A stretch of 54,553 nucleotides of DNA from Acidobacteriota bacterium (lineage in GTDB: Bacteria; Acidobacteriota; Blastocatellia; Pyrinomonadales; Pyrinomonadaceae). The position numbers and the translations under genes are program-made. The stretch's first letter is position 1. Every line of letters begins with the position of its first letter. The notes below the pieces were generated by a model that was given only the letters and a program-made list of their open reading frames with translations, did no database searches and was not told the origin of the DNA. The stretch is from contig JAOAPY010000035.1 in the NCBI GenBank assembly GCA_025463135.1, positions 1 to 54,553 of the forward strand. The letters run 5' to 3'. Below, piece after piece: positions 35,682 to 52,503 of the stretch.

Positions 35682-35758
35682 TGCGTCTTTGCGACTTTGC
35701 GTGAAAGTATTTTTTGGGCAACGGGAATCTCCCGCTGAGGCGCAAAGACGCACGGTAA
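35682..35758. repeat. Family C inverted repeat, copy 3
   Basis: TTGCGTCTTTGCGACTTTGCG faces GCGCAAAGACGCA around a TTTTTTGGGCAACGGG centre. It lies in the tlyA-nadK gap and stops 7 bases before the tlyA stop codon. Confidence 0.75.
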
Positions 35759-35765
35759 ACATCGC

Positions 35766-36515: not shown

Positions 36516-36686
36516 CCGCAAGTCACTTTATCGCAGGAGCGGTGTTACCTGTTAGCCTGGGCAGGCGGGTTGGAGTGAGTGGATAACGCCGCAGATTAAC
36601 GCGGACGAGCCAGATCTAAAGTGAACCTTCTTAATCCGTCCTATCCGTGTTCATTTGTGGCAAACTCCGCTTCTTGGCAGGTGACA

Positions 36687-36962
36687 TTACGCCTGCCGGC
36701 GGGATCCCTGGACCAGCGAGCGCGGTGTGTCGTTGAGATGAAGCGAAACAGCGCACTCGTCGCAAAGCCAAACCAGGATATGCGGTGCGTCTGCCCAAAA
36801 GAAGGAGCTGACCTTCTTGGAGATCTGCAGGGCCTCGTCTACCTGCAAGCGTCTGATTGCCTGTACGTAAAATGCCCCGTTATAGAACTCGCCCTCTGCG
36901 CCCTGCTCCCGATGGACGCACTCGCGCTCCCGAAAAACCTGCTTACTCATCGAGTTCACCAT
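36687..36962 (-). CDS. Small hypothetical protein with CDEC motif
   Basis: This 91-residue frame has VWLCDECAVSLHL, a CxxC pair near the end, and otherwise soluble helical sequence. It lies between dxs and tlyA on their strand, with AAAGGA just upstream of the ATG. Met5 or the second codon GTG could also be the start. The cysteine pair and regular composition favour a real gene, but no family is recognised. Confidence 0.45.
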   Translation of the reverse strand: MVNSMSKQVFRERECVHREQGAEGEFYNGAFYVQAIRRLQVDEALQISKKVSSFFWADAPHILVWLCDECAVSLHLNDTPRSLVQGSRRQA

Positions 36963-37271
36963 TCCTTTACGGCACGATAATACTTAAAGAATGTCGGGGT
37001 TTTATTTCTACTGTGAGAGACAGGCAAGCGTGCTCGCAGTTGCTCTAATTTTCCAGCTCAACTGTTCGCACAGATGATGCCATCGGGAAGAAAAAGAGTC
37101 AACACTTACATACTTAATTGAAATTTGTTCAACAGAGAGGCTTGTGCGAAGTGTGAATTTAAGCAGTGTATCTGATGTATCACAAGCCGTTAGCTTGTGT
37201 GTGAGAATTTATTGGCGTTCCCTTCTCAGGCGAAACCACGAGCCCACTTGTTCGCCCGCGGTGACTGGAGC
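36963..37271. other. Non-coding gap upstream of the small CDEC gene
   Basis: ATCACAAGCCGTTAGCTTGTG (about 37180-37200) is a short palindrome. No ORF of quality and no clear promoter was found. TTGACT near 37098-37103 (minus) lacks a good -10. Confidence 0.4.
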
Positions 37272-39185
37272 TTAAACCTTCTGACGCTGGGCCCGTCGAT
37301 CCTGCAATACCTCTATGCTTTCTTTCACGCGAGTAAAAATGCCGTCGGCATCCAAGCCGTACTTGGCCAGCAGCAGTTTTCCATCTCCGTGAGTCACCAA
37401 TCGATCGGGCAGGCCCATGCGCACGAGGCGCAACTTGTCCTGCAGACCATTTTCTTCGAGAAGTTCCAGGACCGCGGACCCAAACCCACCGGCAACATAA
37501 GCTTCTTCGACTGTAACGATCAGGCGCTTGGTCCGAGCGAGGGCCAGGATCAACTCGGCATCAAGCGGCTTTACAAAGCGCGCGTTAACAACCGTAGCTT
37601 CAATCCCTTCCCGGGCCAGATTTTCGGCAGCCTCCAGCGATGGATGGACCATTGAGCCATAGGCCACGATAGCGATCTCGCCGCCATCGCGCAGGATTTC
37701 GCCCTTGCCAATCTCGAGCAACTGCGGTTCGCGTTCAATATCAGCACCAATACCGTTGCCGCGCGGGTAACGCATCGCCGCCGGCCCGACGTGCTCGATC
37801 ATCGTCAGCATCATGTCGCGCATCTCGCCTTCGTCTTTGGGCGCCATCGCGATGAGATTGGGAATGGCGCGCAGATAAGCGATGTCCAGCAGGCCGTGAT
37901 GCGTAGGGCCATCGCCGCCCGCGATGCCACCGCGATCCAGACAGAACTTGACATTCAAATTCTGAATGCAGACGTCGTGGACCACCTGATCGAATGCGCG
38001 TTGCAGAAAGGTCGAATAGATCGCGCACACCGGAATCAATCCTTCGCATGACATGCCGGCCGCGAAGGTCACGCAATGCTGTTCAGCTATGCCTACGTCA
38101 AAAGCCCGTTTGGGAAACTTCTCGAGCGCGTCGCAGATACCGGTACCGTCGGGCATCGCTGCCGTCAGGGCCACCACTCGCTCGTTCTTTTCCATCAGCT
38201 TGCAGAGAGTTTTGCCGAACACGGACGTATAGGTTGGCGCCTTGGCGGGCGACTTGATTGGTTTGCCGGTCGCCAGATCGAAGGGCCCGGTCGCATGCCA
38301 GCGATAGTAATCGCTCTCAGCCGTTGGATAGCCCTTGCCCTTGGTAGTGAGTGCATGGACGATGACTGGTCCATCCTTGACCTGCTGGGCTTCGCGCAAG
38401 GCCGCCACCAGGGCCCGCGGATTGTGACCATCAATGTAACCGATGTATTTGAACCCCAGTTCGCTGACCAGCGCGCCCGGCAGCACCGCCGCCGCAATCG
38501 CGTCTTTCATTGTCTTGGCGGCGTGGTGCAGGCGGCCGCCGACCGTGGGGATTGCCAGCAGGGTCTCCTCGACTTCTTCTTTGAACCGATGATAGCCCTG
38601 CGATTCACGTATGCGATTGAGGTATCCGGTTAGCGCTCCTACAGCCGGCGCGATGGACATCTCGTTATCGTTGAGCACGACAATCAAGCGCGTTTTTAAG
38701 TGGCCTGCCTGGTTGATCGCCTCCATAGCCATGCCGCCGGCCAGCGAGGCATCACCAATCAGGGCAACTACGTGGTGATTTTCGCCTTTGCGATCGCGCG
38801 CGATGGCCATGCCCAGTGCCGCCGAGATCGAAGTCGAGGCGTGGCCCGCTCCGAAGGTGTCGTATTCCGACTCATCGCGCCGCAGGAATCCGCTTACGCC
38901 GCCATATTGCTTGATGGTCGGCAACTGATCCCGGCGACCGGTCAAAATCTTGTGCGCATAAGCCTGGTGGCCAACATCCCAAACCAGCCGGTCCCGCGGC
39001 GTATCGAAGGCATAATGCAGCGCCGTGGCCAGCTCCACGGCGCCGAGTGATGCGCCCGTGTGGCCGCCAATCCGCGACATAGTTTCCAGGATATATTGAC
39101 GAATCTCATCCGCGACGGTTTGTAATTCTTCGGGTTGCAGGCGGCGCAGATCGGCGGGCGAATTAATATTTTGCAGAAGCTTCAT
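37272..39185 (-). CDS. dxs: 1-deoxy-D-xylulose-5-phosphate synthase
   Basis: The 637-residue thiamine-diphosphate enzyme condenses pyruvate and glyceraldehyde-3-phosphate, the first step of the MEP isoprenoid pathway. It shows GGHTGASLG with His42, DVGHQAYAHKILTGRR, the ThDP-Mg motif GDASLAGG (144-151) with LNDNEMSI, and the transketolase pyrimidine domain CLDRGGIAGGDGPTHHGL. The C-terminal domain has VTVEEAYVAGGFGSAVLE. Length is standard. The Shine-Dalgarno is weak. It leads the dxs-tlyA-nadK strand run. Confidence 0.97.
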   Translation of the reverse strand: MKLLQNINSPADLRRLQPEELQTVADEIRQYILETMSRIGGHTGASLGAVELATALHYAFDTPRDRLVWDVGHQAYAHKILTGRRDQLPTIKQYGGVSGFLRRDESEYDTFGAGHASTSISAALGMAIARDRKGENHHVVALIGDASLAGGMAMEAINQAGHLKTRLIVVLNDNEMSIAPAVGALTGYLNRIRESQGYHRFKEEVEETLLAIPTVGGRLHHAAKTMKDAIAAAVLPGALVSELGFKYIGYIDGHNPRALVAALREAQQVKDGPVIVHALTTKGKGYPTAESDYYRWHATGPFDLATGKPIKSPAKAPTYTSVFGKTLCKLMEKNERVVALTAAMPDGTGICDALEKFPKRAFDVGIAEQHCVTFAAGMSCEGLIPVCAIYSTFLQRAFDQVVHDVCIQNLNVKFCLDRGGIAGGDGPTHHGLLDIAYLRAIPNLIAMAPKDEGEMRDMMLTMIEHVGPAAMRYPRGNGIGADIEREPQLLEIGKGEILRDGGEIAIVAYGSMVHPSLEAAENLAREGIEATVVNARFVKPLDAELILALARTKRLIVTVEEAYVAGGFGSAVLELLEENGLQDKLRLVRMGLPDRLVTHGDGKLLLAKYGLDADGIFTRVKESIEVLQDRRAQRQKV

Positions 39186-39392
39186 GGAGACGTTATTTTT
39201 GTAATTGAAGTTGTTTGCGCGCGTATTGTAGCGCGACGCTTGTGTATTTACTACTTCTCAATTTGACGGCTTGCGAACGTTCGGCTGGCAGTCGGGCCAG
39301 CCTTACTCTGCATTACAAAGTACTCTGTACACTAAAACAGAGTGGGCCGTCAATAGTTAATTCGGTGAGAAGGTCTCAGGTCCACGAATCTT

Positions 39393-39878
39393 ATGAAACT
39401 GGAAATTACAAAATTGCAGCCAGCCCACTGGGATAAAGTGTGCGAAATCTACCTGGCTGGCCTCGGGACAGGACTGGCCAGTTTTGAGACCGAGGCTCCG
39501 TCCTGGGAGCAATGGGATGCTGCGCATTCATCCAGCGTACGGCTAGTCGCACTCTCCGAAGGTTTGGTGACTGGTTGGGCGGCGCTAAGTCCAACCTCAG
39601 CCCGGGCGGTCTATGCCGGTGTCGCGGAGGTAAGCGTATATGTCGCGCAGGCCCGGCGTGGACAGGGCGTGGGGCGGGCCCTTTTGGAACAACTTATCGC
39701 GCAGTCGGAACAGAACGGAATCTGGACCTTACAGGCGAGCATCTTTCCTGAGAATGAAACCAGTATTGCATTACACAAAGGCTGTGGTTTTAGAGAAGTC
39801 GGACGACGCGAAAGAATTGGAAAACTAAACGGCAACTGGCGCGATACGATCCTGCTGGAACGCCGCAGCGCGTTGTGA
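39393..39878 (+). CDS. GNAT family N-acetyltransferase
   Basis: The 161-residue product has VYVAQARRGQGVGRALLEQLI, the acetyl-CoA pyrophosphate loop (RRGQGVG), and SIFPENETSIALHKGCGFREVGRRERIGKLNGNWRDTILLER, typical of the phosphinothricin acetyltransferase-like subgroup. It probably acetylates a small amine or antibiotic-like compound. AGGTCC lies some distance before the ATG. A lipoprotein-like frame at 39215-39436 overlaps and is rejected. Confidence 0.88.
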   Translation: MKLEITKLQPAHWDKVCEIYLAGLGTGLASFETEAPSWEQWDAAHSSSVRLVALSEGLVTGWAALSPTSARAVYAGVAEVSVYVAQARRGQGVGRALLEQLIAQSEQNGIWTLQASIFPENETSIALHKGCGFREVGRRERIGKLNGNWRDTILLERRSAL

Positions 39879-39879
39879 G

Positions 39880-39965
39880 TACGACAGGCCGCCAACCTGT
39901 CGGTAGTAGCACAGAGTTCAGTCGACTCTGCGCGAGGAGCACGGACTGAACTCCGGGCTACAAGC
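39880..39965. repeat. Family E palindromic doublet
   Basis: GTAGCACAGAGTTCAGTCGA and GCACGGACTGAACTCCGGGC lie in opposite orientation, preceded by the palindrome CGACAGGCCGCCAACCTGTCG. It lies between the convergent GNAT and phosphoesterase genes. Confidence 0.65.
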
Positions 39966-39973
39966 TGCGGCTT

Positions 39974-40819
39974 CTACCCTCTGCGCAAGCGCAACACCGC
40001 AATCTCGGGCCGCACGCCAAAACGCACCGGCAATCCAATTACGCCTGTGCCTCTTGAAACATACAGCTGTGTTTGCCCTTTTCGAAAGAGGCCACTGGCA
40101 TATTTCAGATCCATCGTGGCGAACCGCGCCGGCGCGCCGATGAACGGCAATTTGATCTGCCCTCCATGCGTATGCCCGCTGAGAATTAACGATGCGGCTT
40201 GCGCTTCATCAAAATCGAGCACAGTAGGTTGGTGAGAAAGCAGCACCAACGGGACCTTGCGATCGAGTCCATAAAAAGCTCGCACCCAATCGGTGCCATT
40301 CCATGACCAATCGTCTATCCCCGCCAGTTGAATTGCGTCCGGTCCGCGCCTGATCCTGGTGTTCGCATTGTTAAGCACAGGGATGTGATTTCTCACCAGC
40401 GCCCGCGTCGTCAATTCGGGATCGGTGTAGTGGTCGTGATTGCCGAGCACGGCCCAGACACCCTCCGACGCCGTCAATCCACCAAGCACCTCCGCGCACG
40501 GATCAATGAAGCGCCGGTACGTCGTCGTGTAATCACCAGTCAAGACCATCAGATCGGGTTTGGTTCGGTTGGCCAGATCGACAACGCGTTGAACCTCCGT
40601 CAAACCCACGATGCGGCTGTGATGAACATCAGTCAGTTGCGTGATCCGAAACCCTTCGAATCGCTCCGGCAGATCGCCTATGAAAATGTCCGTTTCAGTA
40701 ACTTCGTAGTTATGCGGCGCAATCAAGGTGGCATAAGTTGCCGTGGCCGACACCGCAATCAAAGGCGCAGCCGCCAGGCCGCCAAGGAACTGTCTGCGGT
40801 TGAGATGGACCTTTGACAT
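39974..40819 (-). CDS. Tat-exported metallophosphoesterase
   Basis: The 281-residue protein has a twin-arginine signal (NRRQFLGGLAAAPLIAVSA), then the calcineurin-like metal motifs TDVHHSR, LTGDYTTTYRRF, GNHDHY and SGHTHGGQIKLP. This resembles the YkuE/LpxG-like subgroup of periplasmic phosphoesterases. Substrate unknown. The ATG has no clear Shine-Dalgarno. Its start faces the tRNA-Ser gene 144 bp away. Confidence 0.88.
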   Translation of the reverse strand: MSKVHLNRRQFLGGLAAAPLIAVSATATYATLIAPHNYEVTETDIFIGDLPERFEGFRITQLTDVHHSRIVGLTEVQRVVDLANRTKPDLMVLTGDYTTTYRRFIDPCAEVLGGLTASEGVWAVLGNHDHYTDPELTTRALVRNHIPVLNNANTRIRRGPDAIQLAGIDDWSWNGTDWVRAFYGLDRKVPLVLLSHQPTVLDFDEAQAASLILSGHTHGGQIKLPFIGAPARFATMDLKYASGLFRKGQTQLYVSRGTGVIGLPVRFGVRPEIAVLRLRRG

Positions 40820-40963
40820 GGGATAGCGATTGTATCACTCGACAGAAGGGTGTTGGGACGCCGGCACTACGCCCTAAACCCCACACCCTGCTCCCTTCTC
40901 ACCACTGGTCGTCTTGACAATCCACCATCCCAGTTTAGAATTGACGTTCGCCTGGGCGGTTGC

Positions 40964-41056
40964 GGAGATGTGGCCGAGTGGCTGAAGGCGGCGGTTTGCT
41001 AAACCGTTAAGGGTCTTAAAAGCCCTTCACAGGTTCGAATCCTGTCATCTCCGCCA
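40964..41056 (+). tRNA. tRNA-Ser (anticodon GCT)
   Basis: GGAGATG pairs perfectly with CATCTCC to form the acceptor stem. TGGCCGAGTGG gives the D arm, GGTTTGCTAAACC the anticodon stem-loop with GCT, a long variable arm follows (GGGTCTTAAAAGCCC), and AGGTTCGAATCCT is the T arm. A discriminator G and an encoded CCA close the gene. The long variable arm and GCT anticodon identify serine (AGC/AGT codons). Confidence 0.97.
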
Positions 41057-41065
41057 GATCATCAA

Positions 41066-41206
41066 GAGGTCAGCGGTCACTAGAACAAGAGGTCAGCGGT
41101 CAGAAATCAGAAGTCAGTTAAGGCGTTCCGGGTTTCTACTGACCTTTGATTCCTGATCGCTGACCTCTTAATTCTTATTCTGCTGACTTCTGGCCGCTGA
41201 CCTCTT
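41066..41206. repeat. GAGGTCAGCGGTCA array between tRNA-Ser and gltX
   Basis: AAGAGGTCAGCGGTCA occurs twice in direct orientation (about 41066 and 41087), and the complement TGACCTCTTAAT with CGCTGACC twice on the other side (about 41157 and 41195). The whole forms an inverted structure around GGTTTCTACTGACC. It ends within 10 bases of the gltX start, leaving no Shine-Dalgarno. Confidence 0.75.
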
Positions 41207-41213
41207 AATCCTT

Positions 41214-42782
41214 ATGACTGTTCGCGTACGCTTTGCTCCATCGCCAACCGGCTACCTGCATATCGGGGCGGCGCGCTCGGCACTCTTCAACTGGCTCTTT
41301 GCGCGCCAGATGGGCGGCAAGTTTTTGCTCCGAATTGAAGACACCGACCTGCAACGCTCAACTGACGAATCCACGCGCTCGATTCTGGAAGGCCTCGAGT
41401 GGCTGGAGCTAAACCACGACGAAGAGCTGGTCTTTCAATCAGCCAACGCACCGAAACATCGCGCAGCGGCTGAGCGCCTGGTCGCGGAAGGAAAAGCTTA
41501 TCGCGACTTCACGCCCAAAGAGCAGCGCGACGATAAGAACGTTAAGCAGGGCATCGCCGATCGCGCGCGTTCGCAGGCAGCTGAAGGGTTGGACCAGCGC
41601 AGCAATCCTTATCGCGATCTGCCTCGTGAAGAAGCAGAGCGCCGGGCCGCTGCCGGTGAACCATTCGCCGTGCGTCTGAAGGTTGCCGGCGAAGGCCGGA
41701 CACGTTTCGAAGATATCGTTTACGGCACGCAGGAACGAAGCTACGCTGAGATCGAAGACCTGGTGCTGCTGCGGTCGGACGGCCATCCTCTCTATAATCT
41801 TTCGGTCGTGATTGACGACATCGAGATGGGTATCACGCATGTGATTCGCGGGCAGGACCATCTGACGAATACACACAAGCAGATTTTGATCTACGAAGCG
41901 CTGGGCGCCCGCATACCACAGTTCGCGCACCTGCCGTTGATACTGGCGCCAAACAAAAGCAAGCTGTCTAAGCGCAAGCACGGCGAAGTTGTCAGTCTGA
42001 CCACGTATCGTGATCGAGGATTCATTCCTGATGCGTTCGTCAATTTTCTGGTCCTGTTGGGATGGTCACCGGACACCACTCAGTACGCCGCAGGGTTAGT
42101 TGGCAACGATCAAGAGGTGCAGCCGAATCTCGATCCTAACAACGAAATTTATTCTCGCGAAGAATTGAAACATCTCTTTTCTCTCGATCGCATTCACAAA
42201 TCGAATGCCGTGTTCAACTTTACCGAGAACGATCCGCGTCACTGGACCGACGACAAGGCGCTGTGGATGAATGCCGAATACATCCGCACCATGCCGCTGG
42301 TGGAACTGTTGCCGATGGTCAAGGCCGAGTTGCGTGCCAACAAACTATGGCGCGAAGAATACGAGGAGGACGATCGCGACTGGTTTGAAAAAGCAGTCGA
42401 ACTGATTCGTCATCGCTTTTTTACTCTGAAAGATTTCTCGGCTCAGGGCCGCGCCTATTTTTCCGATGATTTTGATTTTGACGACACAGCAGTAGCCAGG
42501 AACCTGAAAAAAGAGCCGCGTCTGAAAGAGTGGCTGCCGGCATTGGCGACGCGGCTTGAAACGGTCGAGCCTTTTGACGCAGCGGCCGTGGAAGCGGCCT
42601 TGCGTGAGTACGCCGACGAATTGGGTGTCAAGGCTGGCCTTTTCATCAACGCCTCGCGCACAATGTTAACTGGCCAGGCGGTGGGTCCTTCGATGTTTGA
42701 GGTCTTCGAGATCATGGGCAAAGATCGATCTGTCGAGCGCTTGCGCAGTGGCGTACCCTGGTTCGATTCGGCAAGCGTTTAA
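41214..42782 (+). CDS. gltX: Glutamyl-tRNA synthetase
   Basis: The 522-residue class I synthetase charges tRNA-Glu. RVRFAPSPTGYLHIGAARSALFNWLFAR carries the HIGH-type motif (HIGA at 17-20), VIRGQDHLTNTHKQI follows, and KLSKRKHG at about 250-257 is the KMSKS-type loop. The C-terminal anticodon-binding part has RFFTLKDFS and VGPSMFEVFEIMGK. Length is typical. The upstream repeat ends at the start codon, so translation may rely on a leaderless-like or repeat-derived context. Confidence 0.96.
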   Translation: MTVRVRFAPSPTGYLHIGAARSALFNWLFARQMGGKFLLRIEDTDLQRSTDESTRSILEGLEWLELNHDEELVFQSANAPKHRAAAERLVAEGKAYRDFTPKEQRDDKNVKQGIADRARSQAAEGLDQRSNPYRDLPREEAERRAAAGEPFAVRLKVAGEGRTRFEDIVYGTQERSYAEIEDLVLLRSDGHPLYNLSVVIDDIEMGITHVIRGQDHLTNTHKQILIYEALGARIPQFAHLPLILAPNKSKLSKRKHGEVVSLTTYRDRGFIPDAFVNFLVLLGWSPDTTQYAAGLVGNDQEVQPNLDPNNEIYSREELKHLFSLDRIHKSNAVFNFTENDPRHWTDDKALWMNAEYIRTMPLVELLPMVKAELRANKLWREEYEEDDRDWFEKAVELIRHRFFTLKDFSAQGRAYFSDDFDFDDTAVARNLKKEPRLKEWLPALATRLETVEPFDAAAVEAALREYADELGVKAGLFINASRTMLTGQAVGPSMFEVFEIMGKDRSVERLRSGVPWFDSASV

Positions 42783-42844
42783 GCAACAGGTGTTCAGAGC
42801 GCCTGTAGCGGCGAAACATCCTGAAAATTTATTTGGACAACATT

Positions 42845-43495
42845 ATGAAAAGACTCGCTATCAGCATCACATTACTTCTGACGTTTGCCGTGCTCGCCCT
42901 CGCCCAGAACACAAATTCATCACCCGCGCCGACAAAAGTCCGCCCGCGCACTACCACAGCCAAAGCAACGGCTTCCCCGACTCCTAAACCCACCACGACA
43001 GCAAAGCCGGCGACAACCGCGGCGAGTGACAAGCCAAAGCCGGCGCCTACTGCTGGTGACTCAGTGCAGGCAGCATTCAACAAAATCCTCGACGGCATCA
43101 GGCGCTCCAACGTGAATCTGGTGACGAGCGGATACTTGAACTCGCCTGCCCTGGTGCTTTTCAACTATAACGGGTCGGTGACTAAGGGCTGGGACCAGAT
43201 GCGCAAGAATCGCGAGAGCTCTTATCCGGATATCAAAGACGTTAAGCTCGACGTGCGCGATGTCCATGTGCAAATGCTCGGGCGGGATGGCGCGGTAATC
43301 ACTTGTCTATGGACCCAAACGCAGACCTATAAGGGCGCACCCGACACAGCTACCGGTCGCATGACGCTGGTGTTCAAGCGCGCCGGTACTGAATGGAAAG
43401 CGGTCCATCTACACACCTCGCCGGATCGGCCGGACCCCTCTCGCGTACCTGCATCGGAGCAAACCGCGACGCCCGCCGCCACGCCGGCACCATAA
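42845..43495 (+). CDS. Secreted SnoaL/DUF4440-like protein
   Basis: From MKRLAISITLLLTF the product is 216 residues: a signal peptide ending near LALAQ, a Thr/Pro/Ala-rich linker (about 25-75), and an NTF2-like domain with FNKILDGIRRSNVNLVTSGYL, VTKGWDQMRKN, GRDGAVITCLWTQTQ and GRMTLVFKRAGTEWKAVHLHTSP. Such folds are small binding or catalytic barrels; many are uncharacterised. It is a paralogue of the protein at 52596-53060. A TTG start four codons earlier is less likely. Confidence 0.82.
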   Translation: MKRLAISITLLLTFAVLALAQNTNSSPAPTKVRPRTTTAKATASPTPKPTTTAKPATTAASDKPKPAPTAGDSVQAAFNKILDGIRRSNVNLVTSGYLNSPALVLFNYNGSVTKGWDQMRKNRESSYPDIKDVKLDVRDVHVQMLGRDGAVITCLWTQTQTYKGAPDTATGRMTLVFKRAGTEWKAVHLHTSPDRPDPSRVPASEQTATPAATPAP

Positions 43496-43496
43496 A

Positions 43497-43581
43497 GTCC
43501 GACGAACTTCAGTTTGTCGTCCGTAAAAGAGAAACTCAGTTCCGACGCAAGTTATCGACAAACTTATTAAGTTTGTCGGAC
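43497..43581. repeat. Family B REPIN-like doublet between convergent genes
   Basis: CGACGAACTTCAGTTTGTCG (43500-43519) and the variant CGACAAACTTATTAAGTTTG (from 43556) face each other. The minus-strand glycosyltransferase gene ends inside the second arm: its last codons read NVRQT then TAA. Confidence 0.88.
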
Positions 43582-45207
43582 ATTCCGAATCCGCGCGATC
43601 GCGATCCCACCAAGGACGGCCAGGAACGGAAACAGCTCAACTACATATCGCGGTTCGGGGTTTTCCATGGTCGAGAAAAACGCCAGGCGAATAAACATCA
43701 TCAGCGCCGCCAGCAGCAGCCAACGGCGAATCGCGAAATCGCGCGCGCGCCACAGTACCCAGCCACCGGCAATTCCCAGCAAACTATAAATCCCAACCAA
43801 CACAGCAAAGAGCGGCAACCAGATGTGCTGATGTATCGAGTAATCCAAATCGTCGAGCGGAAACAACTCGCCCGAAAACGGATAGTAATCCGCATGAGGG
43901 TTGGCCCAGAGTGACCAGGCCCGCTTCAGGGGCAGCCACAAATAGTAACGAACCGGCGCCCGCGCAATTCGCTCGCGCGCGATCTGCCCAAACGCGGCAT
44001 CAATCGCCGGAGTCATCTCGGGTGTTACCGGTTCAGCAGCCTCTTCCGGTTGTTCCTCGTCTCCCGTTTTTTCATCGGCTGCGTTTTCATCAACCAGCGG
44101 CGGGGAAGGACTCGGTTGTTGTTTACCGGGCGAAGGATTCTTACCGGCAGACTCAGCCGCGGGCGTAGGACTCGGAGAAGGTTCTTCCGTCGTCGCCGGC
44201 TCGTCGGTTGAAGGAGGATCGTTGTACTGATCCAGCAATGCGGCCACGCGCGCTTTTTCCTCGGCCGAATCAAAGGCGTATTCCGGCAGGTCGTCCGGAT
44301 CGATGGGCTTATCATCCAGGGTCCAAAGGACGGTCTCTACATAACGTCCGTCATCTACCCAGGATCTGACCCAGGCGTAATAACCGCGCGGTACAAACTC
44401 GCCGGGCATTTCACCGTGGGCCGGCGAAAGGGGCTGGAAGAGATGAAAGGTGCGCCAGTTGCGCACGGTCCACGGCACCAGCAACAACACAAAGGTTATT
44501 GAGAGTACTGAGCCTGCTGCGAATACCCTCGCCAACTTGAACCGCCAACCCGTTGCCTGGCCATCGCTGTTCCTGCGAAACCATTCCGTAATCACCAATG
44601 TGAGTCCGACCGCGGCGATAAATAACCCGCTGTCCGGTCGAAAAAAAACACTCAGACTTCCAATCAGACCCACCGCAGCCCAGCGCCATAACGCCTGTTT
44701 GAAAGAGGAAGATCGAATCGCCAGAGTCGCCAGCAAACAAAGCGTGATCGCCAACAATGAAGCCCACGTCTCCGTCAGTATTGTGCCGACGTAAATTGTC
44801 GTGAAGGGACACGCTGCGGCCAGGGCCAGGGCGGCCAGGCTCGCTCTTCGTTTCCGTCCCCGATCCGGTTCCCAAAGGAATGCGAGCAGGGCCACCAACC
44901 CACAGGTCAATGTGTCCAGCAGCGCCTGCACAATGCGGACGGCAGTGTTGTTGTAGTGACCAAAAACCGAATAGATCGCGGCGAGAAACAAAGGATAACC
45001 CGGCAGACGAATCAGCGAAGGCGCAAACGGCGGCTCTGTGTCATGGGAATAGACATGGTGTTCCAGGAGATTGCGCGCCATCTGCGCATAGACCCGGCCA
45101 TCACCGGGAGTGTCGTTGGCGAGAAAGCGCGCCACGCAGAAACGAAATGAGAACGCCGTTACTAACAGCAGTAAGTACGCGATCCACTTCCTCTGGCGGT
45201 CAGGCAT
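43567..45207 (-). CDS. GT39/ArnT-like membrane glycosyltransferase
   Basis: The 546-residue protein has many hydrophobic segments with the first-loop motif PGDGRVYAQMARNLLEHH, RLPGYPLFLAAIYS and PFTTIYVGTILTETW, resembling polyprenyl-phosphate-sugar transferases of the GT39/ArnT/PMT superfamily. A long Pro/Ser/Glu/Thr segment (about residues 330-395) lies between helices and probably forms a periplasmic loop. It may transfer a sugar to protein or lipid. It lies downstream of the exopolysaccharide synthase on the same strand. The C-terminus is encoded by a repeat. Confidence 0.82.
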   Translation of the reverse strand: MPDRQRKWIAYLLLLVTAFSFRFCVARFLANDTPGDGRVYAQMARNLLEHHVYSHDTEPPFAPSLIRLPGYPLFLAAIYSVFGHYNNTAVRIVQALLDTLTCGLVALLAFLWEPDRGRKRRASLAALALAAACPFTTIYVGTILTETWASLLAITLCLLATLAIRSSSFKQALWRWAAVGLIGSLSVFFRPDSGLFIAAVGLTLVITEWFRRNSDGQATGWRFKLARVFAAGSVLSITFVLLLVPWTVRNWRTFHLFQPLSPAHGEMPGEFVPRGYYAWVRSWVDDGRYVETVLWTLDDKPIDPDDLPEYAFDSAEEKARVAALLDQYNDPPSTDEPATTEEPSPSPTPAAESAGKNPSPGKQQPSPSPPLVDENAADEKTGDEEQPEEAAEPVTPEMTPAIDAAFGQIARERIARAPVRYYLWLPLKRAWSLWANPHADYYPFSGELFPLDDLDYSIHQHIWLPLFAVLVGIYSLLGIAGGWVLWRARDFAIRRWLLLAALMMFIRLAFFSTMENPEPRYVVELFPFLAVLGGIAIARIRNVRQT

Positions 45208-45306
45208 CGAATTTGTTCTTGGTACTTCGTACTTAGTCTTCGGACTTAGTTCTTTGTACTCGATTGTCGGTTCTTGATTCAGATCACACGGAACGGTCGC
45301 GAGATC
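45208..45306. other. Repeat-like spacer upstream of the GT39-like gene
   Basis: TTGTTCTTGGTACTTCGTAC-type sequence (about 45213-45240) has a facing relative ACAAGAACAAGTACGAAGCA near 45560. The pair brackets the family D element at 45307-45470. No gene is present. Confidence 0.5.
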
Positions 45307-45470
45307 TTCATCTCATTCTCACCCGGTTTCAACCGGGTGATGAGGACAAAAGAAATTCTGCTTAACCGTTTCAACGGTTTACTCTCGCCAGGAACTTACA
45401 AACCGTTGAATCGGTTGGAAATCAAGGGGAACCTGTTCACCCGGTTGAAACCGGGTGAGAATGAGATGAA
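45307..45470. repeat. Nested palindromic element with perfect 34-bp inverted arms, family D copy 2
   Basis: The outer arms 45307-45340 and 45437-45470 are exact reverse complements over 34 bases, each containing CACCCGGTTTCAACCGGGTG or its complement, itself a near palindrome. The 96-bp interior holds a weaker pair (AACCGTTTCAACGGTTT and AAACCGTTGAATCGGTT). A diverged copy is at 4317-4476. No ORF inside. Confidence 0.92.
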
Positions 45471-45589
45471 ACCTGAGAATGATATGAAGCCAGGCGACCA
45501 ACTCCAGTGCCGGGTATTTGGAACTAACTGCCGGTAACCATGAATCAAGTGCCAAAAACAAGAACAAGTACGAAGCACCAGGTTCGAGG

Positions 45590-48500
45590 TTACGGTTGCG
45601 CTTCAACGGTCGCTTTTCTTTCCAGCTTGCCCCAACCAACCAGAGCGCCGCGCATCGCCGTGGCAACCGACTTGATCATGACGTAATACATAACCTGGCG
45701 ATAGCAGAATCGCTGCAGAAAAATCCACCAAAGCAGACGCCAGCGCTCTCGTCTTTCCAGAATGAAAGCGAAACAGGCCGCCAGCCAGTCTATCGCCAGG
45801 AACAGCGCGTAATAAAAAAGCACCTGGTTCAAATTCGTCATCGAGTAGCCCGAGGGCTGCTGCAACCAGTCGAGGCCGGCAGAACACAGCGTGTAGACCA
45901 GCATCAAATCCATCACCGGCGAAATCAGCGGAAAGATGATTTGAAAAATCCAGACATTGGGCATCGCGACAAAACCAAGCGCGCCATAACGCGGTCGCAG
46001 CAAAGCATCGCCATGTTTCCACATGCACTGGAGCGTGCCGTAGGCCCAGCGAAAGCGCTGCTTTGCCAGCGTCCGCAAAGTAGCCGGAGCTTCGGTCCAC
46101 GCGATAGCGCTTTCTTCGTAGCCGATCTTGTAACCCAACCGCCGAATGCGCAGCGTTAGATCCTGATCTTCGGCCAGCGTATCCGAGGTAAAGCCGCCAG
46201 CCTCATCCAGCAGATCGCGCCGCCATGCTCCCACCGCTCCCGGCACAACCGTGATGCAATTCAAGCTGGCAAAGGCACGCCGGTCCATGTTCTGCGAAGT
46301 GATGTATTCGAGCGCTTGCCAGCGGGTGACGATATTGATGCGGTTGCCAACCTTGGCATTCCCCGCCACAGCTCCCATTCTCGGATCATAAAAGCGATGC
46401 GCCAACGCCGCGATCGCATGTGGCGCGAACACAGTGTCCGCGTCGAGGGCAATTATTATTTCACCCGTTGCGTAACGTAAGCCGAAGTTCAGGGCATTCG
46501 CTTTGCCGGCATTCGGTTCGGTAAAAAGCCTTACGCGAGGTTCGTGCTTGAACTTTTCGTTGACGACCTCGCTGGTGCGATCGAGGGAACCATCGTCCAC
46601 TACAATGATTTCAAAGTTGTCATAGTCCGAGCTCAACAAACTATCCAGAGTCGCTTCAATTACCATCTCTTCGTTGTAAGCAGGAACAATCACCGATACC
46701 GAGGGTTTGTATTTCTCTCCAGCGTGAGTCCGCCGCCGGTAGCGGGAACGCAACCACTGGGCAAAGGCCAGGGCGCCGACGAACAACAGGCGTCCCAGAC
46801 CCAGCAGGATGCCGAGCAGGAAAGCCCACTGTAACAACCAGCCGCCGGTCGAAAGGACGAAGAAAGCCAGCGAGTCGGCGCGCGTATAAACGCTTTGGCT
46901 TGACGACACGGGCGGCATGGCCTGATCCCGCGAGATTCCAGCGAGTTCGGAGGTCAAGACAAACTTGAAGCCCCGCGCGCGTAATTCATGAATGATTCCC
47001 GGTAAAGCCTGGATGGTCGCTTCTCGATCTCCACCCGAATCATGCAGCAGGACCACCTGGCCGCGAGTTTCGGGGTTCGTATCCAGGGCGCGTTTCAAAG
47101 TCCGCTGCACAATCTCATCGGAGGTAATAGGTAGCTTCCAATCATCCGGATCGATACGCAAACCGACAATGATGTAGCCGAGTTCCTGAGCGCGATAAGC
47201 GGGCTCGACTTCCTCGGGCTTATCGGCTTCCGCATCACCAAAATAAGGCGGGCGCAGCAGCACCGTGGAACGTCCGGTCAGTGACTCGATCAAACGCTGC
47301 GTCGCGTTGAGCTCGAGATCGGTAAGCCGCCAGGGAATTTCGCCAAGGTTCGGGTGCGTAAACGTATGGTTACCCACCTCGTGACCTTCGTTAACCGTGC
47401 GACGCACCAGATCGGGATAGGCCTGCCCATTCTTACCGATAATGAAGAAAGTCGCGGGGACTTGTTCCTGCTTCAGGATGTCCAGGATGCGTGGTGTCCA
47501 TTTGGGATCGGGGCCATCGTCAAAAGTCAGCGCAATCAATCCCGGATGATCTCCCGACCGCTGGATTACATACGAGGAGGGAAGGTTGGAACTGTCGTAA
47601 GTCTCAGTAGTGACAAATCCATTCGCCTGGTCGACCTTGATGTCTCGCCAGCCATCGTGCGGGCGAGAGACAACTTTCAGCAGTTCTCCCTGGCCTTCAA
47701 AATCGACTTGATAACCATAGACGATCCGCCGCAGGGCCTCGGGAGAATAGTCATGCGTTGCGGAGCCAAAGAAGGACCAGATCGAAGGGTCTTCCGAACC
47801 CAGACGCCAGAGGGCAAAACCCGCGGGGTTATAACCGCTGGCTGCTCTCATCTGGTTGTAGGCTGTTACAGCATCGAGGAACCAAACGTGGTGATGTGTA
47901 TTATCGTCTTCGTCATACTCGTAAGTTGGATTCAGCGTTACCTGGTCGAACAGGATGTGCTCGACCTGCGATTCGTGCGCGTTAATCAGCGCTTCCTGAC
48001 AGGTAACCTCCTTGACTGTGTCCTCGCCTTCGGTCCAATCGTATCCATAATTTCCGATGGCGATGATCGTTTTAGCCGGATCGATTTCCTTCATCCGGGC
48101 AACGAGGTTTCTCTCATACCAGGGCTGGCCCGCGACTGAACCCCAGCCATGATCGCTGCCGGCCGCTTTTCCAGCCCAATGCTCGTCATACGCCATCAGC
48201 ATCAGATAGTCATTGGCAGCCGCGAATTCCTTGTACTTCCATTCTGAAGAGTCGAAGGGAACGGCCTGCATGACAGTCCATCCCCTAACCTCAAACACTG
48301 CATGAAGCTCCTGCATGAAACGCAGAAGGTTATCGAGACTTGCGGCCATCGGTTCCGGTATTTCTTCGAAGTCGATACAAACGCCGGCGAACTTGTTTTG
48401 TTCGACAAAGGTCGTCAACGCCGCGACTAAACGCTGCCGCGCCGGTTCATCCGCGATCTGGCGGCCCAGCAGTTCTTTATCCCATTTGTCGTCAACCAGG

Positions 48501-49087
48501 TTTTGCACCATCGGCAGGATGCGAATCTGTGGCCGCGTTTCGCGAATTAGATTAAGCGCGGGAGCGTGAAGCTCCACGCCGATGGGACTGCCGTCCCTGG
48601 CCGGGTCCTGCAAATGGACCCATTGGGGTACCACCCAATCCAGATGGTCCAGATTCCGCTCGAGTGAAGAGAGGCTGGACTCGTCCCAGCTAATATAAAA
48701 ACCTATGGCCAAGGGCCTGGACTTGGGAATTGCGGGCGGAGGTATGGTCGGCGGCGGTGCGATTGGCATTTCCTGCGCGCGTCTGGCCGGCACTACTCGC
48801 TTTGTTTTATCGAGAGCATGCTGCAGTTCTTCCTGCGCTTTCTTTGCTTTTTGTTCGCGTGGATTTGCGGGTAGCGTTGGAGGCTTGGGCTTGAGATCCT
48901 GAGGGCGCGGGAAGGACGCACCGGCCCGCAGATCAAAAACCGGCAAGAGTGGTTTGACCACGACACTGGCGATGAATACCGCCGTCACCCCAGTGACGAT
49001 GACCGCGGCCGCCAGCCAGGTACGGCGCACGCGCCGCCAGCGGCGTCCGGCAGGATCGTAAAAAACTGGCTTTTCACCTATCGGCAA
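45590..49087 (-). CDS. Tri-modular GH18 / polysaccharide deacetylase / GT2 synthase
   Basis: The 1165-residue protein starts at TTG with GGAG five bases upstream. One membrane helix (about 24-50) leads to an extracytoplasmic GH18-like domain (about 125-465, GVCIDFEE with acids at 239-242), then a NodB deacetylase (about 515-715, TFDDGPD at 521-527, HTFTH at 574-578). Helices at about 738-780 re-enter the membrane to a cytoplasmic GT2 domain (VIVPAYNEE, DDG at 831-833, DAD at 882-884, EDQD at 973-976, QRFRW at 1010-1014) and further helices. This covers polymerisation, deacetylation and hydrolysis of an N-acetylhexosamine polymer, like PgaB and PgaC combined. Confidence 0.93.
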   Translation of the reverse strand: MPIGEKPVFYDPAGRRWRRVRRTWLAAAVIVTGVTAVFIASVVVKPLLPVFDLRAGASFPRPQDLKPKPPTLPANPREQKAKKAQEELQHALDKTKRVVPARRAQEMPIAPPPTIPPPAIPKSRPLAIGFYISWDESSLSSLERNLDHLDWVVPQWVHLQDPARDGSPIGVELHAPALNLIRETRPQIRILPMVQNLVDDKWDKELLGRQIADEPARQRLVAALTTFVEQNKFAGVCIDFEEIPEPMAASLDNLLRFMQELHAVFEVRGWTVMQAVPFDSSEWKYKEFAAANDYLMLMAYDEHWAGKAAGSDHGWGSVAGQPWYERNLVARMKEIDPAKTIIAIGNYGYDWTEGEDTVKEVTCQEALINAHESQVEHILFDQVTLNPTYEYDEDDNTHHHVWFLDAVTAYNQMRAASGYNPAGFALWRLGSEDPSIWSFFGSATHDYSPEALRRIVYGYQVDFEGQGELLKVVSRPHDGWRDIKVDQANGFVTTETYDSSNLPSSYVIQRSGDHPGLIALTFDDGPDPKWTPRILDILKQEQVPATFFIIGKNGQAYPDLVRRTVNEGHEVGNHTFTHPNLGEIPWRLTDLELNATQRLIESLTGRSTVLLRPPYFGDAEADKPEEVEPAYRAQELGYIIVGLRIDPDDWKLPITSDEIVQRTLKRALDTNPETRGQVVLLHDSGGDREATIQALPGIIHELRARGFKFVLTSELAGISRDQAMPPVSSSQSVYTRADSLAFFVLSTGGWLLQWAFLLGILLGLGRLLFVGALAFAQWLRSRYRRRTHAGEKYKPSVSVIVPAYNEEMVIEATLDSLLSSDYDNFEIIVVDDGSLDRTSEVVNEKFKHEPRVRLFTEPNAGKANALNFGLRYATGEIIIALDADTVFAPHAIAALAHRFYDPRMGAVAGNAKVGNRINIVTRWQALEYITSQNMDRRAFASLNCITVVPGAVGAWRRDLLDEAGGFTSDTLAEDQDLTLRIRRLGYKIGYEESAIAWTEAPATLRTLAKQRFRWAYGTLQCMWKHGDALLRPRYGALGFVAMPNVWIFQIIFPLISPVMDLMLVYTLCSAGLDWLQQPSGYSMTNLNQVLFYYALFLAIDWLAACFAFILERRERWRLLWWIFLQRFCYRQVMYYVMIKSVATAMRGALVGWGKLERKATVEAQP

Positions 49088-49280
49088 TGCTTCTCCAAAA
49101 CTGAAATCAAGTGTCTTCGACGCGCAGAGCCTTGTTCAAGACCCCGCGTTTGATGCCGCGTATTGATGGGGCGGTGCTTTCCCTTTCGGGCTTCCAACAG
49201 TTCGCGTTGGATCTTTCATTATGGCCCTTTGTCGGTCAAGTAGCGAGGAACGAAAAATATTGATGCTGGTATCCGGCACG
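49088..49280. other. 5' region of the exopolysaccharide synthase gene
   Basis: There is no gene. The stretch lies between a predicted minus-strand terminator and the TTG start of the synthase. No confident promoter was found, so transcription may depend on read-through past the terminator or on a non-standard promoter. Confidence 0.45.
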
Positions 49281-49317
49281 AGAGAAAAGCCGCCCGCGAT
49301 GGTATCGCGCGCGGCTC
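49281..49317 (-). terminator. Intrinsic terminator, minus strand
   Basis: GCCGCGCGCGAT and ATCGCGGGCGGC pair over 12 positions with one mismatch and an ACC loop, followed on the minus strand by TTTTCTC. The T-tract exists only in this orientation. It closes a unit of about 210 nt that starts at the promoter near 49502-49530. Confidence 0.75.
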
Positions 49318-49495
49318 TCCGGTGAAACTGTTGGGATTGGCCTGTGTACTGACTGTGTGCGTCGCCGCACTAAACAGCAAGACTACCGAACCGTCATCCT
49401 AACAAGTTGCGAATAACTGGTTCAGAGGTCAGGCCTCAGCCACCTCACTGTGATTAGAACTCATATATTATTTGATCACCTCCTTTTCAGTGTTG
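49283..49495 (-). ncRNA. Predicted ~210-nt transcript with 11-codon ORF, leader or small RNA
   Basis: A sigma70-type promoter and an intrinsic terminator bracket this interval on the minus strand. Near its 5' end is AAAAGGAGGTGATC (49474-49487), complementary to the 3' tail of 16S rRNA, then an ATG at 49464 opening an 11-codon frame (MSSNHSEVAEA, stop at 49429-49431). GGAGG is 14 bases from the ATG, a little far, but the extended pairing ends 9 bases away. No known RNA family is recognised. It could be an sRNA, a small-protein gene, or a leader of the synthase gene 195 bp downstream. Confidence 0.55.
49429..49464 (-). CDS. Possible 11-residue leader peptide
   Basis: The frame encodes MSSNHSEVAEA. 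It is supported only by the perfect Shine-Dalgarno and the surrounding promoter and terminator. There are no runs of one regulatory amino acid as in classic attenuators. It could be an incidental frame in a non-coding RNA. Confidence 0.35.
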   Translation of the reverse strand: MSSNHSEVAEA

Positions 49496-49501
49496 CAGCG
49501 G

Positions 49502-49530
49502 ATAATAAAATACATGTGGGCAGCCGTCAA
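49502..49530 (-). promoter_or_regulatory. Near-consensus sigma70 promoter, minus strand
   Basis: TTGACG (49525-49530) and TATTAT (49502-49507) are separated by exactly 17 bp on the minus strand. A transcription start near 49490-49495 is expected, just upstream of the strong Shine-Dalgarno. It is the clearest promoter in the window. Confidence 0.7.
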
Positions 49531-49577
49531 TTGTTTTTTATTAGTGGCTCGGACCTCCCGCTCGCGGGTCGCGCGCG

Positions 49578-49655
49578 CGCAGTAATGCAGACTGTTAGTT
49601 TGCGTCCACGTTGAATGCCAAACGACGATCGCAAACTAACAGTTTGCGTTACAAA
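49578..49655. repeat. Family F inverted repeat overlapping the hutI stop
   Basis: GTAATGCAGACTGTTAGTTT faces AAACTAACAGTTTGCGTTAC across about 30 bp. The hutI stop codon TAA lies in the TTTGTAACGC edge of the right arm. Related sequences are at 10243-10370 and 18849-18884. Confidence 0.8.
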
Positions 49656-50908
49656 GCAAACGCCGGACGGCCACCGACGTAGACCTTCCACGCGTGCTCC
49701 CTGCCGAAAAAGTAAGCGAGGTGGCGATAGTCCTGCACATCGTGGATCACAAAGTCGGCCAACTTCCCTGTTTCGAGTGATCCAATCTGCTCGCCACGGC
49801 CGAGGCTGTAAGCGGCATTGATTGTAACCGCGCTGATCGCTTCCTCAGGCAGCACTTTCATTTGCGTCGAAGCCAGCGACAAAACCAGCGGCATCGAGGT
49901 GGTCGGAGAAGAGCCCGGATTAAAGTCAGTCGCCAAGACTATTGCCAAGCCGGCGTCAATCATAGCGCGCGCCGCCGGATACCGCGCCGAGCCGAGCGCG
50001 TAAACCGAGGCGGGCAGCAGTACCGGTTGGACGTTTGCTGCTTTCAGCGCCCCGATTCCTTCCGCATCAGTATGTTCGAGATGATCGGCAGTGGCAGTGC
50101 CTAGTTCCGCGGCCAGTTTGGCGCCCCCCGACAGCGAAAACTGATCGGCATGAAGACGCAGCCTCATTCCCTTGGTGCGCGCGGCTGACAGGATCTGCCG
50201 CGACTCAGCTACGCTGAAGACATTCTGTTCGCAGAACACATCGCAGCATTCCGCCAGCTTCTGCTCAGAGATCAGTGGGATCATCTCTTCAATAAGAAGT
50301 TCGATATACGCTTCACGGCGGGAACGATATTCTTCAGGGACCTCATGGGCACCGAGAAAGGTGGGAACATACCGCAGGTGTGTTTCAGCGTCTTCACCAA
50401 GACGCTTGATAGCCCTCAGGATCTTCAGCTCGTCTTCAACGCTAAGTCCATAGCCGGATTTTGCTTCGATGGTCGTTGTACCGCCGCGCAGAAACCAACG
50501 GGCATAGCGCTTCGCGATCTCAACCAGATCATCCTGCGTTGCGGCTCGAGTCGCACGCACCGTGGATTGAATTCCTCCTCCGCGAGCAGCTATTTGCTGG
50601 TAGGTGGTTCCGGCGACTCGCTCTGCGAATTCATCGGCACGCGTGCCGGCAAAAACCGGATGCGTATGGGCGTCGACAAAGCCTGGCATGACCAGCCGTC
50701 CACCTGCGTCCATGACTTCGCAGACGGCGTTGATGAGTGGCTCGATCTCTGCGCGGGCGCCGACCTTCTCAATGCGATCACCGCGCACCAGCATGGCGCC
50801 GTCACTGATTATTGACAGCTCACGCAGTTCCGGGCCCACGCGCGCTCGTGCCGGCCCCGCCAGTGTGACGAGCTGTGAACAATTTATTATGGCAAGCAAC
50901 TCAGGCAC
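49649..50908 (-). CDS. hutI: Imidazolonepropionase
   Basis: From GTG at 50908 (AAAGG five bases upstream) the product is 419 residues. It hydrolyses imidazolonepropionate in histidine degradation. It has [21 protein letters not shown] (metal HxH), [44 protein letters not shown] and [14 protein letters not shown] in the family order. The frame opens 46 codons further upstream, but those are encoded by the 22-bp inverted repeat (peptide [15 protein letters not shown]) and rejected. No other hut genes are in the window; the neighbouring permease may import the amino acid. Confidence 0.94.
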
Positions 50909-50931
50909 TGCCTTTCCCAGGATAAGAACCA

Positions 50932-51037
50932 GGGACCGCACGCTTCCAGCGTGTTTAGGTTGTCCCTTCCGGGAACCGATCGTCTGACGGACAGAAGCCT
51001 CGAGCGCGGCCTCGGCACGCTGGAAGCGTGCGGTCCC
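50932..51037. repeat. Element with perfect 22-bp inverted repeats, between hutI and permease
   Basis: Bases 50932-50953 (GGGACCGCACGCTTCCAGCG...) and 51016-51037 are exact reverse complements of 22 bases, 62 bp apart. Each arm contains a smaller palindrome, CACGCTTCCAGCGTG. A partial copy lies near 11928. It fills the gap between the permease stop and the hutI start. Confidence 0.88.
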
Positions 51038-51042
51038 AGGCT

Positions 51043-52503
51043 TCACTTTGCCGGCACACCTCGTCTACCCAGCCAAAAGATCAGCGCGCCGACACAGTTT
51101 GCGATAATCACGGGTGCGATAATCTTTAAGGCAAACAGGGATCGGCTTTCCACCTTAATAATAGGTACGATTGTAAAACCGATGTACAGGAGCGAAACAA
51201 GAAAGCCGGAAGCGCAGGCAATCTTGAGCCATAGCGGAGCACGCACGCCGAAAGCCTTCATCCCAAACAGAGGTATCGCAAACAGCACCAGATAGGTCGA
51301 CGCGTAAAATACGCCACCCGCATTGTCGAGTAATTGAAACGCTTCCTGCGCATTGACCCCGATCAAACTTGCCAATCCCAGAACGAGTGTGACGGCGCCG
51401 ACAAAGAGGATCGAGTTGACCGGTGTCTTGCGCCGCGGATGCAAACGCGTAAACCACACCGGCAGCAGGCGGTCCCAGCCCGCAACCATCGGCAGACGAG
51501 TATTGCCCGCAAAGTAAATACTCATCAGGGCAATCTGCCGCACCACCACACCGAGAATTGCGAGTGAAACAATTTTCCCAACCCAGCCAAACGAACCAAA
51601 GCCAAGCGAAAGCACCTGGGGGATCGGTCCAATCAGATCAACTTTGTCCGGCGAAACAAACGCCAGCACGGAACTCGTCCCGAGAATGAACATCACGGCA
51701 ATTATGGGCGCCGCGATAATCACTGAGCGGCCAATATTGCGGGCCGGCGCTTTGGTTTCTCCTGCAAGAATGGCGATGTATTCAAAGCCCGTCAGCGCCC
51801 CCAGCGCGAGTTTGCTGTAGACGTTCAGGTTTAGCAGCGAAAGTTCCGGCACCCTCACGTTGAACGGGTGGTAAGCGCCGACGGTTCCGCGCACCAGCCC
51901 GAACAGCGGCAAGCCAATCAGCGCCGCAAAAGTAATCATCAGCATCACGCCACCAGCGTTATGCACCCACTTTCCCAGGCCGAGTCCGCGCACGGCGGCG
52001 GCCATCATCGCGATCACCAGCACGCAACTAACTACGGTGATGAGCCATTTCTCTTCTTTCATCCACGGTACATTCAGCGCGTAACAGGCGTTAGTGGTGA
52101 CTACGAGTCCGATGCCCGCCAGAATTGAAATCGCAAAGACCCAAAGGTTCCACGCCACCATGAAGGCCACAAAATCATTGAACCCCAGCTTGGCCCATTG
52201 ATAGAGGCCGCCCTCGAGCGGCATCAGCTTATTAAGAAAAATCACCGCGGCAGCCAGCGGCAGATAGAAAGTAACGATGGCCAGCAGCCAGAAGACATTC
52301 TGGGAATCACCCAGTTTCGCGGCCCATCCGACCCAGATAGTGCCGACCACAAATACGATCTGCGTGAGTACCAGATCGAATAGTCCCAGCTCTTTTTTGA
52401 AGACAGAGCTACGCGCCTCGACTTCGTGTTCAAGGGTCGCGAGCGCGTGGTTAGGTGTTTTGCTTTCTTGGTCCGCCAAACTAACACCCTCAAACAACGT
52501 CAA
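51043..52503 (-). CDS. APC family amino-acid permease
   Basis: The 486-residue protein has about twelve hydrophobic segments, with [48 protein letters not shown] (the family's PxEGGxYxW) and [28 protein letters not shown] (helix 6 ExxxPxR). These are amino acid-polyamine-organocation carriers. The start is a TTG. A TTG eight codons later, with GAGGG seven bases upstream, is an alternative. It precedes hutI on the same strand and may feed it histidine, an inference from position only. Confidence 0.9.

Follow-up and report, generated by a model that had tools for sequence, protein, structure and literature searches.

Leader-peptide attenuators of the thrL and whiB7 types combine a strong Shine-Dalgarno sequence (SD), a tiny open reading frame (ORF), a structured RNA, and an intrinsic terminator. 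Among described RNA families, Rfam holds RF01867 (CC2171), a caulobacter sRNA, and RF02471 (Ms_IGR-5), "Actinobacteria sRNA," whose description line names Actinobacteria only. Published reports describe MS_IGR-5 homologs as ribosome protected in Ribo-seq of M. abscessus and M. smegmatis (PMC4974804) and transcripts matching the RF02471 family in Streptomyces lividans and S. avermitilis (PMC8079986 and PMC8780764). We found no report in the literature on the function of this RNA. Here, we analyzed a window of 54,553 nucleotides (the whole stretch of DNA under study) from a member of the Acidobacteriota. Positions 49530-49281 of its minus strand combine a promoter, 13 bp that match the 3' tail of 16S rRNA, an 11-codon ORF, and a terminator-like hairpin. 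The best explanation of this element, which we judge somewhat probable as a whole, sees in it an independent RNA gene, about 210 nt long, that is distantly related to Ms_IGR-5 and acts as a ribosome-responsive switch.

Anatomy of the element

The earlier note on this DNA, made from the letters and a list of ORFs, had described a complete set of expression signals here, and all the features that it named were found where it had placed them, within 49530-49281 of the minus strand. In the direction of transcription, the order is promoter, short leader, AAAAGGAGGTGATC, 11-codon ORF, about 100 nt of structured RNA, and terminator hairpin. The putative sigma-70-type promoter (49502..49530, minus strand, as for all coordinates of the element) consists of TTGACG at 49530-49525, a 17-nt spacer, and TATTAT at 49507-49502 and is recognized by its pattern and its conserved position. 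AAAAGGAGGTGATC lies at 49474..49487. The single 16S match in the genome ends in GGATCACCTCCTTTCT, the standard 16S tail, and therefore AAAGGAGGTGATC forms 13 continuous pairs with this tail, as the note had proposed for the SD. The ORF (49429..49464, with ATG at 49464-49462 and TGA at 49431-49429) encodes MSSNHSEVAEA, with a frame and stop that are kept in homologs. It contains the SD-like motif GAGGTGG (49440..49446), which begins 15 nt before the stop codon and is the best internal anti-SD binder.

The predicted helix P0a pairs CACTG (49488..49492), just 3' of the expected transcription start, with CAGTG (49446..49450). In the closing helix P1, the 5' strand is GGTGGCTG (49437..49444) and the 3' strand is CAGTTTCACC (49321..49330), which holds UCACC as in the 16S tail. 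P2 pairs GGCCTG (49430..49435), which overlaps the stop codon, with CAGGCC (49339..49344). P0a and P1 are based on RNAalifold, pair counts, and the MFE structure, the 5' strand of P1 also on single folds, and P2 is based on RNAalifold, pair counts, and two pairs that change on both sides. The joining strand AATCCCAA (49331..49338) is conserved by eye in alignment A1, with a possible pseudoknot to TTGTTAGGAT in the P3 loop. The pseudoknot of TTGTTNGGAT with AATCCNAAC was visible by eye in part of the class rows and absent in others, and it was treated as a lead only and not counted.

The predicted intrinsic terminator (49281..49320), based on letters and fold, has a core stem of 12 positions with one mismatch (49315-49304/49300-49289), with TTTTCTCT next to it. 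The 12-bp hairpin and T-tract of the original description are thus present, and the fold extends further, the stem running through the T run to 49320-49284 with 16 pairs, one mismatch, and -28.7 kcal/mol (z -5.15). The hairpin was absent from the list of a simple terminator scan, probably because of the mismatch in its stem.

Distribution of the element

The element is a single-copy feature of its own genome (one match). When the query included the flank, the other 72 matches in this genome all stayed upstream of the promoter, reaching query position 99 at most, and fell mainly on a palindrome; an interspersed repeat was therefore rejected as the identity of the element. The palindromic repeat itself (GCAAACTGTTAGTTTGCG...CGCAAACTAACAGTCTGC; 49582-49652), located between hutI and the element, looks REP-like and interspersed, with its matches often on both strands of one place.

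In a search of 60 genomes (own included), 29 matched and 27 carry the element; L036 and L037, which match terminator-like DNA only, were dropped. Alignment A1 comprises 26 sequences of the element's class, and L031, which has the element but was missed by the pattern, stands outside both A1 and the 105 homologs described below. The full-length model R1 matched 44 of 147 class genomes, 42 of them once. The two genomes with two matches were G155 (C218), where these lie about 1 kb apart on one contig and the second is weak (35.9 bits), and G202. Model R2, covering the 5' part, matched 92 of 247 genomes of the phylum Acidobacteriota (55 at an E value of ≤1e-6) and 105 of 198 genomes in the phylum of a Mycobacterium locus (72 at ≤1e-6); these counts, like those for R1, were obtained under strict filters, and weak matches may be due to chance or to 16S ends in antisense orientation. 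No convincing match was obtained in several genera and families of the element's own class, even with laxer filters, so that the element either can be lost or has diverged beyond the models. Within the window, R2 had a second, weak match (21265-21332, minus strand; 12.4 bits, E value of 0.012) that lies within a called ORF and is probably due to chance.

We also scanned a species-genome collection with a pattern (SD, a gap of 20 to 50, and GTGAGGTGG), which returned at least 120 stretches, and examined the 80 among the matches listed. In 78 of these 80, GAG opens a frame with a stop beginning 15 nt on; L052 and L058 have no GAG-frame stop at 15 nt and were rejected as chance. Among the matches listed, the record titles include many Actinobacteria as well as Acidobacteria, Zixibacteria, Nitrospirae, Rokubacteriota, Deltaproteobacteria, Myxococcales, Lujinxingiaceae, Leptospirales, and Spirochaetia. 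Judged by these titles, an SD/ORF/stop anatomy is common to Acidobacteria, groups of Actinobacteria, Zixibacteria, Nitrospirae, Rokubacteria, Deltaproteobacteria/Myxococcales, and Spirochaetes.

Translation and stop geometry

Conservation of the 11-residue frame had been proposed as a check, and the frame and stop are kept in 104 to 105 of 105 homologs (the 26 class rows, 78 scan loci among the matches listed, and L039). A start codon after the SD, open and in frame with a fixed GAG, was found in 104 of the 105, compared with 14 and 0 for the other frames, and a slightly wider window gave an in-frame start in all 105. The distance from SD to GAG occurs in all three phases (23, 44, and 38 homologs), and the frame is still kept by shifting the start codon, which strongly indicates that translation is under selection. 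Counted from the first base of GAG, the stop begins at 15 nt in 104 homologs and at 18 nt in one, while the stop codon itself varies (TAG in 69, TGA in 26, and TAA in 10). Outside the class rows (L039 and L047 to L126), the stops are mostly TAG (65/79), and within them they are mostly TGA (16/26). ORF lengths range from 11 to 20 codons, and L029 carries two additional in-frame codons. In one genus of Acidobacteriota (L212 to L215; L039:1497-1586), the ORF has 19 codons with two [S/N/R]EV segments, e.g., MSYHSTSEVNYRTREVVAT.

The best internal anti-SD site lies 15 nt before the stop in 104 of the 105 homologs (mean, -10.1 kcal/mol). In 78 of the 105 rows, the scan pattern forces the GAGGTG motif but leaves its spacing to the stop free, and the class rows were detected independently of this pattern. 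Complementarity to 16S rRNA, with G-U pairs allowed, extends over 13 to 15 nt in the 26 class sequences and over 13 to 18 nt in the 79 other homologs, although the pattern already forces 12 nt in 78 of the latter (among the matches listed). In L231, L233, and L235 to L240, a group of Acidobacteriota, GGAGGTGRTCC is replaced by GGAGGATGATCC or GGAGGATGGTCC, so that the long complement is interrupted by one base, and the ORF and a GTGAGGTGACTGAGG-like end are retained; L234 carries a further additional base.

GAG GTG is kept at the nucleotide level in the class loci, with GTA in L031 as the single exception, and also in the readable loci found by the models; the printed strand of L227 is without the motif. 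The codons around it and the N-terminal part vary freely between groups when compared by eye. The nucleotide-level conservation of GAG GTG therefore suggests a role in RNA or ribosome geometry rather more than in a peptide.

RNA structure

RNAalifold on the 26 class sequences gave P0a (CACTG/CAGTG), P1 (GGTGGCTG/CAGTTCACC), and P2 (GGCC/GGCC), and the MFE structure of the element's own RNA contains P0a, P1, P2, and the terminator (z -4.59). In the class alignment, 98.6% of 442 cells are paired and 18 cells are double changed, compared with 3.8 after shuffling (none of 500 shuffles was as high), and pairing drops to 15 to 47% when the partners are slid. Two pairs of P2 change on both sides, in 7 and 8 of the 26 sequences, as do two pairs of P0a, in 2 and 1 sequences. 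A covariation check on homologous regions, which the earlier note had recommended, thus gave a positive result by pair counts for the helices next to P1. P1 is nearly invariant, with six of its eight pairs never varying and none changing on both sides, and therefore within the class it rests on topology rather than covariation.

We additionally folded 103 single homologs (L111 and L022 are too short to fold). GAGGTG is mostly paired more than 40 nt downstream in 78 of these folds, with partners such as GUCACC, GCCACC, and ACCACC, and this far-downstream pairing is absent in the other 25. The mean probability that GGAGG is unpaired is only 0.32. The cross-phylum alignment A2 used 48 of 104 candidates, with L111 left out because of a contig edge. 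Its statistics are mixed and to that extent speak against the proposed structure: paired cells, double-changed cells, and the covariation score in A2 were all above 500 of 500 shuffles, whereas pairs changed on both sides (2 versus 3.1) and further pair types (11 versus 14.0) were not above the shuffles. For the inner helix P0b, pairing in the register of A2 reaches only 58.9% of cells.

Alternative explanations

Taken singly, the signals of the element are unexceptional, which would fit consensus signals that came together by chance in an intergenic region. By itself, the promoter pattern is no rarer than expected by chance, with 2 found against 2.9 expected in 46000-52500 and 10 against 10.4 in 30001-50000, where two sites outscore the element's promoter (11 of 12). 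AGGAGGTGATC with at most one mismatch occurs once in the window, with 0.55 expected, and 45 of 100 shuffles had at least one match. However, a promoter-like pair at the same distance is present in 26 of 26 aligned class sequences (own included) compared with 19 of 520 mononucleotide shuffles, and a model of 48 homologs, own sequence among them, matched the element with 62.6 bits (E value of 2.7e-20) in an unfiltered search of the window. Chance is excluded because the promoter position is conserved, the helices covary, the reading frame is kept, and the model match is this strong, so that the probability of this reading is negligible. For promoter and SD, the lack of conservation in close relatives that the earlier note had named as fatal to its proposal was not seen: promoter and SD complement are kept in 26 of 26. 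A different question is whether the element belongs to the gene 195 bp downstream on the same strand, located as the note had described and encoding GH18, polysaccharide deacetylase, and GT2 domains, for which an attenuator or riboswitch-like leader had been suggested. Synthase homologs do follow the element in six loci, own included, but these are only 6 of 28 class-type loci, and in the other 22 the three closest called ORFs include none (some loci being short). A leader of the synthase is therefore not supported, and we rejected that role on gene context as highly improbable. Of the 26 class-type loci for which an ORF was called downstream, 11 have the first such ORF on the opposite strand. 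Among these opposite-strand ORFs, a Pfam domain over the cutoff was found in 4 of 10 scanned (SnoaL_3 twice, Response_reg, and HTH_Crp_2) and not in the other 6; the eleventh, a 92-amino-acid ORF in L014, overlaps the element and is probably spurious. The domain scan softened this argument, and the synthase count carries the case. Neighboring ORFs are mechanical calls that are noisy in GC-rich genomes, and strand counts outside the class were accordingly left out. No antiterminator overlapping the terminator stem appears in the MFE or centroid structure of the element's own RNA. On the upstream side, hutI homologs lie near the element in 20 loci of its own family type (own included), a neighborhood that is synteny. 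In mycobacteria, the neighbor is different, by its sequence a putative aminodeoxychorismate-lyase-like gene.

Two further explanations accept a conserved gene and differ in its product. The peptide ending in EVAEA or EVAAR could itself be the product, with the RNA structure merely tuning its translation. The conserved start, frame, and stop favor this reading, as do the ORF lengths and the two extra codons of L029, which stay in frame. However, GAG GTG is kept as nucleotides while the surrounding codons and the N-terminal part change freely by eye, and the conserved codons are those within the helices and the SD-like motif, and we consider a small-peptide gene unlikely. The roles of sRNA and small protein suggested in the earlier note are thus each partly right, in that the element appears to be a stand-alone RNA gene and to be selected for translation, with the conserved GAG GTG favoring RNA or ribosome geometry over the peptide. 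The element could also act as a decoy: free 30S subunits would be captured by the long 16S complement, and the tiny ORF would exist only because a start codon happens to lie nearby. A complement of 13 to 15 nt in 26 of 26 class sequences and the standard 16S tail of the own genome are in line with such a role. A decoy, however, has no need for a reading frame, a fixed stop geometry, or P1 and P2, and the Acidobacteriota group in which GGAGGATGATCC or GGAGGATGGTCC breaks the long complement keeps the rest of the element; this explanation is quite unlikely.

Proposed mechanism

A ribosome-responsive switch is the best-supported mechanism, and we lean toward a translated RNA, distantly related to Ms_IGR-5, whose closing helix opens when a ribosome is at the stop codon. 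Transcription would begin about 10 nt ahead of the ribosome-binding site, which is very strong and lies in the side of hairpin P0a. The 11-codon ORF would then be translated, with its last codons, GAG GTG GCT GAG GCC TGA, doubling as the 5' strands of P1 and P2. When the stop codon is in the A site, the last sense codon, in the P site, is 8 nt after GAGG, a distance that resembles initiation spacing. A ribosome is large enough that one at the stop should cover these strands, GAGGTG in P1 among them, and both P1 and P2 are therefore expected to open; the opening of P1 would free the 3' strand AATCCCAACAGTTTCACC. The internal GAGGTG would then be at an initiation-like distance from the P site and could hold the 16S tail; from this geometry, we infer that the ribosome may park at the stop.

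If expressed in its own organism, the RNA would accordingly exist in two forms, a closed form when free and an open form when a ribosome is parked at the stop. The balance between them would be set by initiation and by the speed of termination and ribosome recycling. The open form may act in trans through the freed strand or, alternatively, may tie up ribosomes. A small RNA gene with its own promoter, a near-perfect match to the 16S tail, and a stop locked to a second ribosome-binding motif, found in several phyla, is not easily accounted for as a leader, an sRNA, or a small protein of the usual kind. Should the element prove to be a switch, it would act as an RNA-based gauge of initiation and termination by ribosomes.

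Comparison with known RNA families

A search against Rfam, as suggested in the earlier note, gave no family for the element; at gathering cutoffs, the only match in the window was a tRNA at 40964-41053, and other known RNA families were rejected on this basis. RF02471 matched the element below threshold only, with 15.3 bits (E values of 0.15 to 0.26) against a cutoff of 45 bits. CC2171 gave 10.6 bits against a cutoff of 75, which was reached in none of the 21 genomes searched.

The element shares the strong SD, tiny ORF, structured RNA, and intrinsic terminator of the thrL- and whiB7-type attenuators but, unlike these, has no conserved downstream gene and no helix competing with the terminator in its own fold. 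CC2171 resembles it in parts, with a AAAGGAGGTGATCCAG-like start, an ORF of 17 to 18 codons in 9 of 10 loci read, and a terminator-like hairpin by eye. In contrast, the CC2171 loci read are without the GTGAGGTG motif. Their best internal anti-SD site gives a mixed picture, at 14 to 15 nt before the stop in 4 of 10 and elsewhere in 6. In 5 of 6 genomes belonging to this family, the best R2 match coincided with the CC2171 locus, although weakly (17.5 to 21.6 bits), and these matches may rest on the shared SD; CC2171 is at most candidate kin.

The likeness to RF02471 is closer. The alignment of the element covers positions 1 to 184 of the 184-position model, with the same order of ACAC, GGAAGGAGGTGRTC, GTGAGGTGGCTG, AATYCC, CAGTCACCCGG, and hairpin, and in the actinobacterial loci the frame likewise runs to a stop 15 nt from GAG. 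Intermediates were also found. Another Acidobacteriota lineage (G077) reached 43.8 bits; of the 20 genomes in this search, 8 matched at an E value of ≤1 and none exceeded the cutoff, and the weaker matches, where read, do not resemble the element. A Zixibacteria bin (G085) was over the cutoff with 55.9 bits. Among 15 genomes with scan loci, nine matched RF02471, four of them over the cutoff, and nothing was found in the other six, comprising the genome of the chance locus L058, Rokubacteria, Bryobacterales, Lujinxingiaceae, Myxococcales, and one of the Terriglobia. For the last five, the case for membership would be the SD/ORF/stop anatomy that they share. R2, in whose construction both sets were used, recovered members in Acidobacteriota and in the phylum of the Mycobacterium locus. 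Signals of RF02471 and CC2171 in control genomes (Caulobacter, Thermus, Synechococcus, Deinobacterium, and Thermotoga) were excluded from the evidence because the antisense strand at a 16S 3' end also reads AAAGGAGGTGATCCAG. No RF02471 match was listed for the E. coli control, but with distant members this model lacks the power to establish absence.

By alignment and motif order, the element is a distant, sub-threshold relative of Ms_IGR-5. In the present analysis, we worked out the ORF, the internal SD that is locked to the stop, and the broader range of Ms_IGR-5 relatives. A bolder and rather doubtful proposal, which we offer tentatively, is an ancient, unrecognized bacterial RNA superfamily that includes Ms_IGR-5 and perhaps the alphaproteobacterial CC2171 and that senses ribosome status. 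Its near-maximal SD would load a ribosome, a second SD would hold it at the stop of the micro-ORF, and occupancy of the stop would switch a helix whose other strand imitates the 16S tail. On comparative sequence grounds, the element is conserved, structured, selected for translation, and a distant relative of an orphan Rfam family. Even on a modest reading, the orphan "Actinobacteria sRNA" would become a translated RNA of wider range with its conserved parts named.
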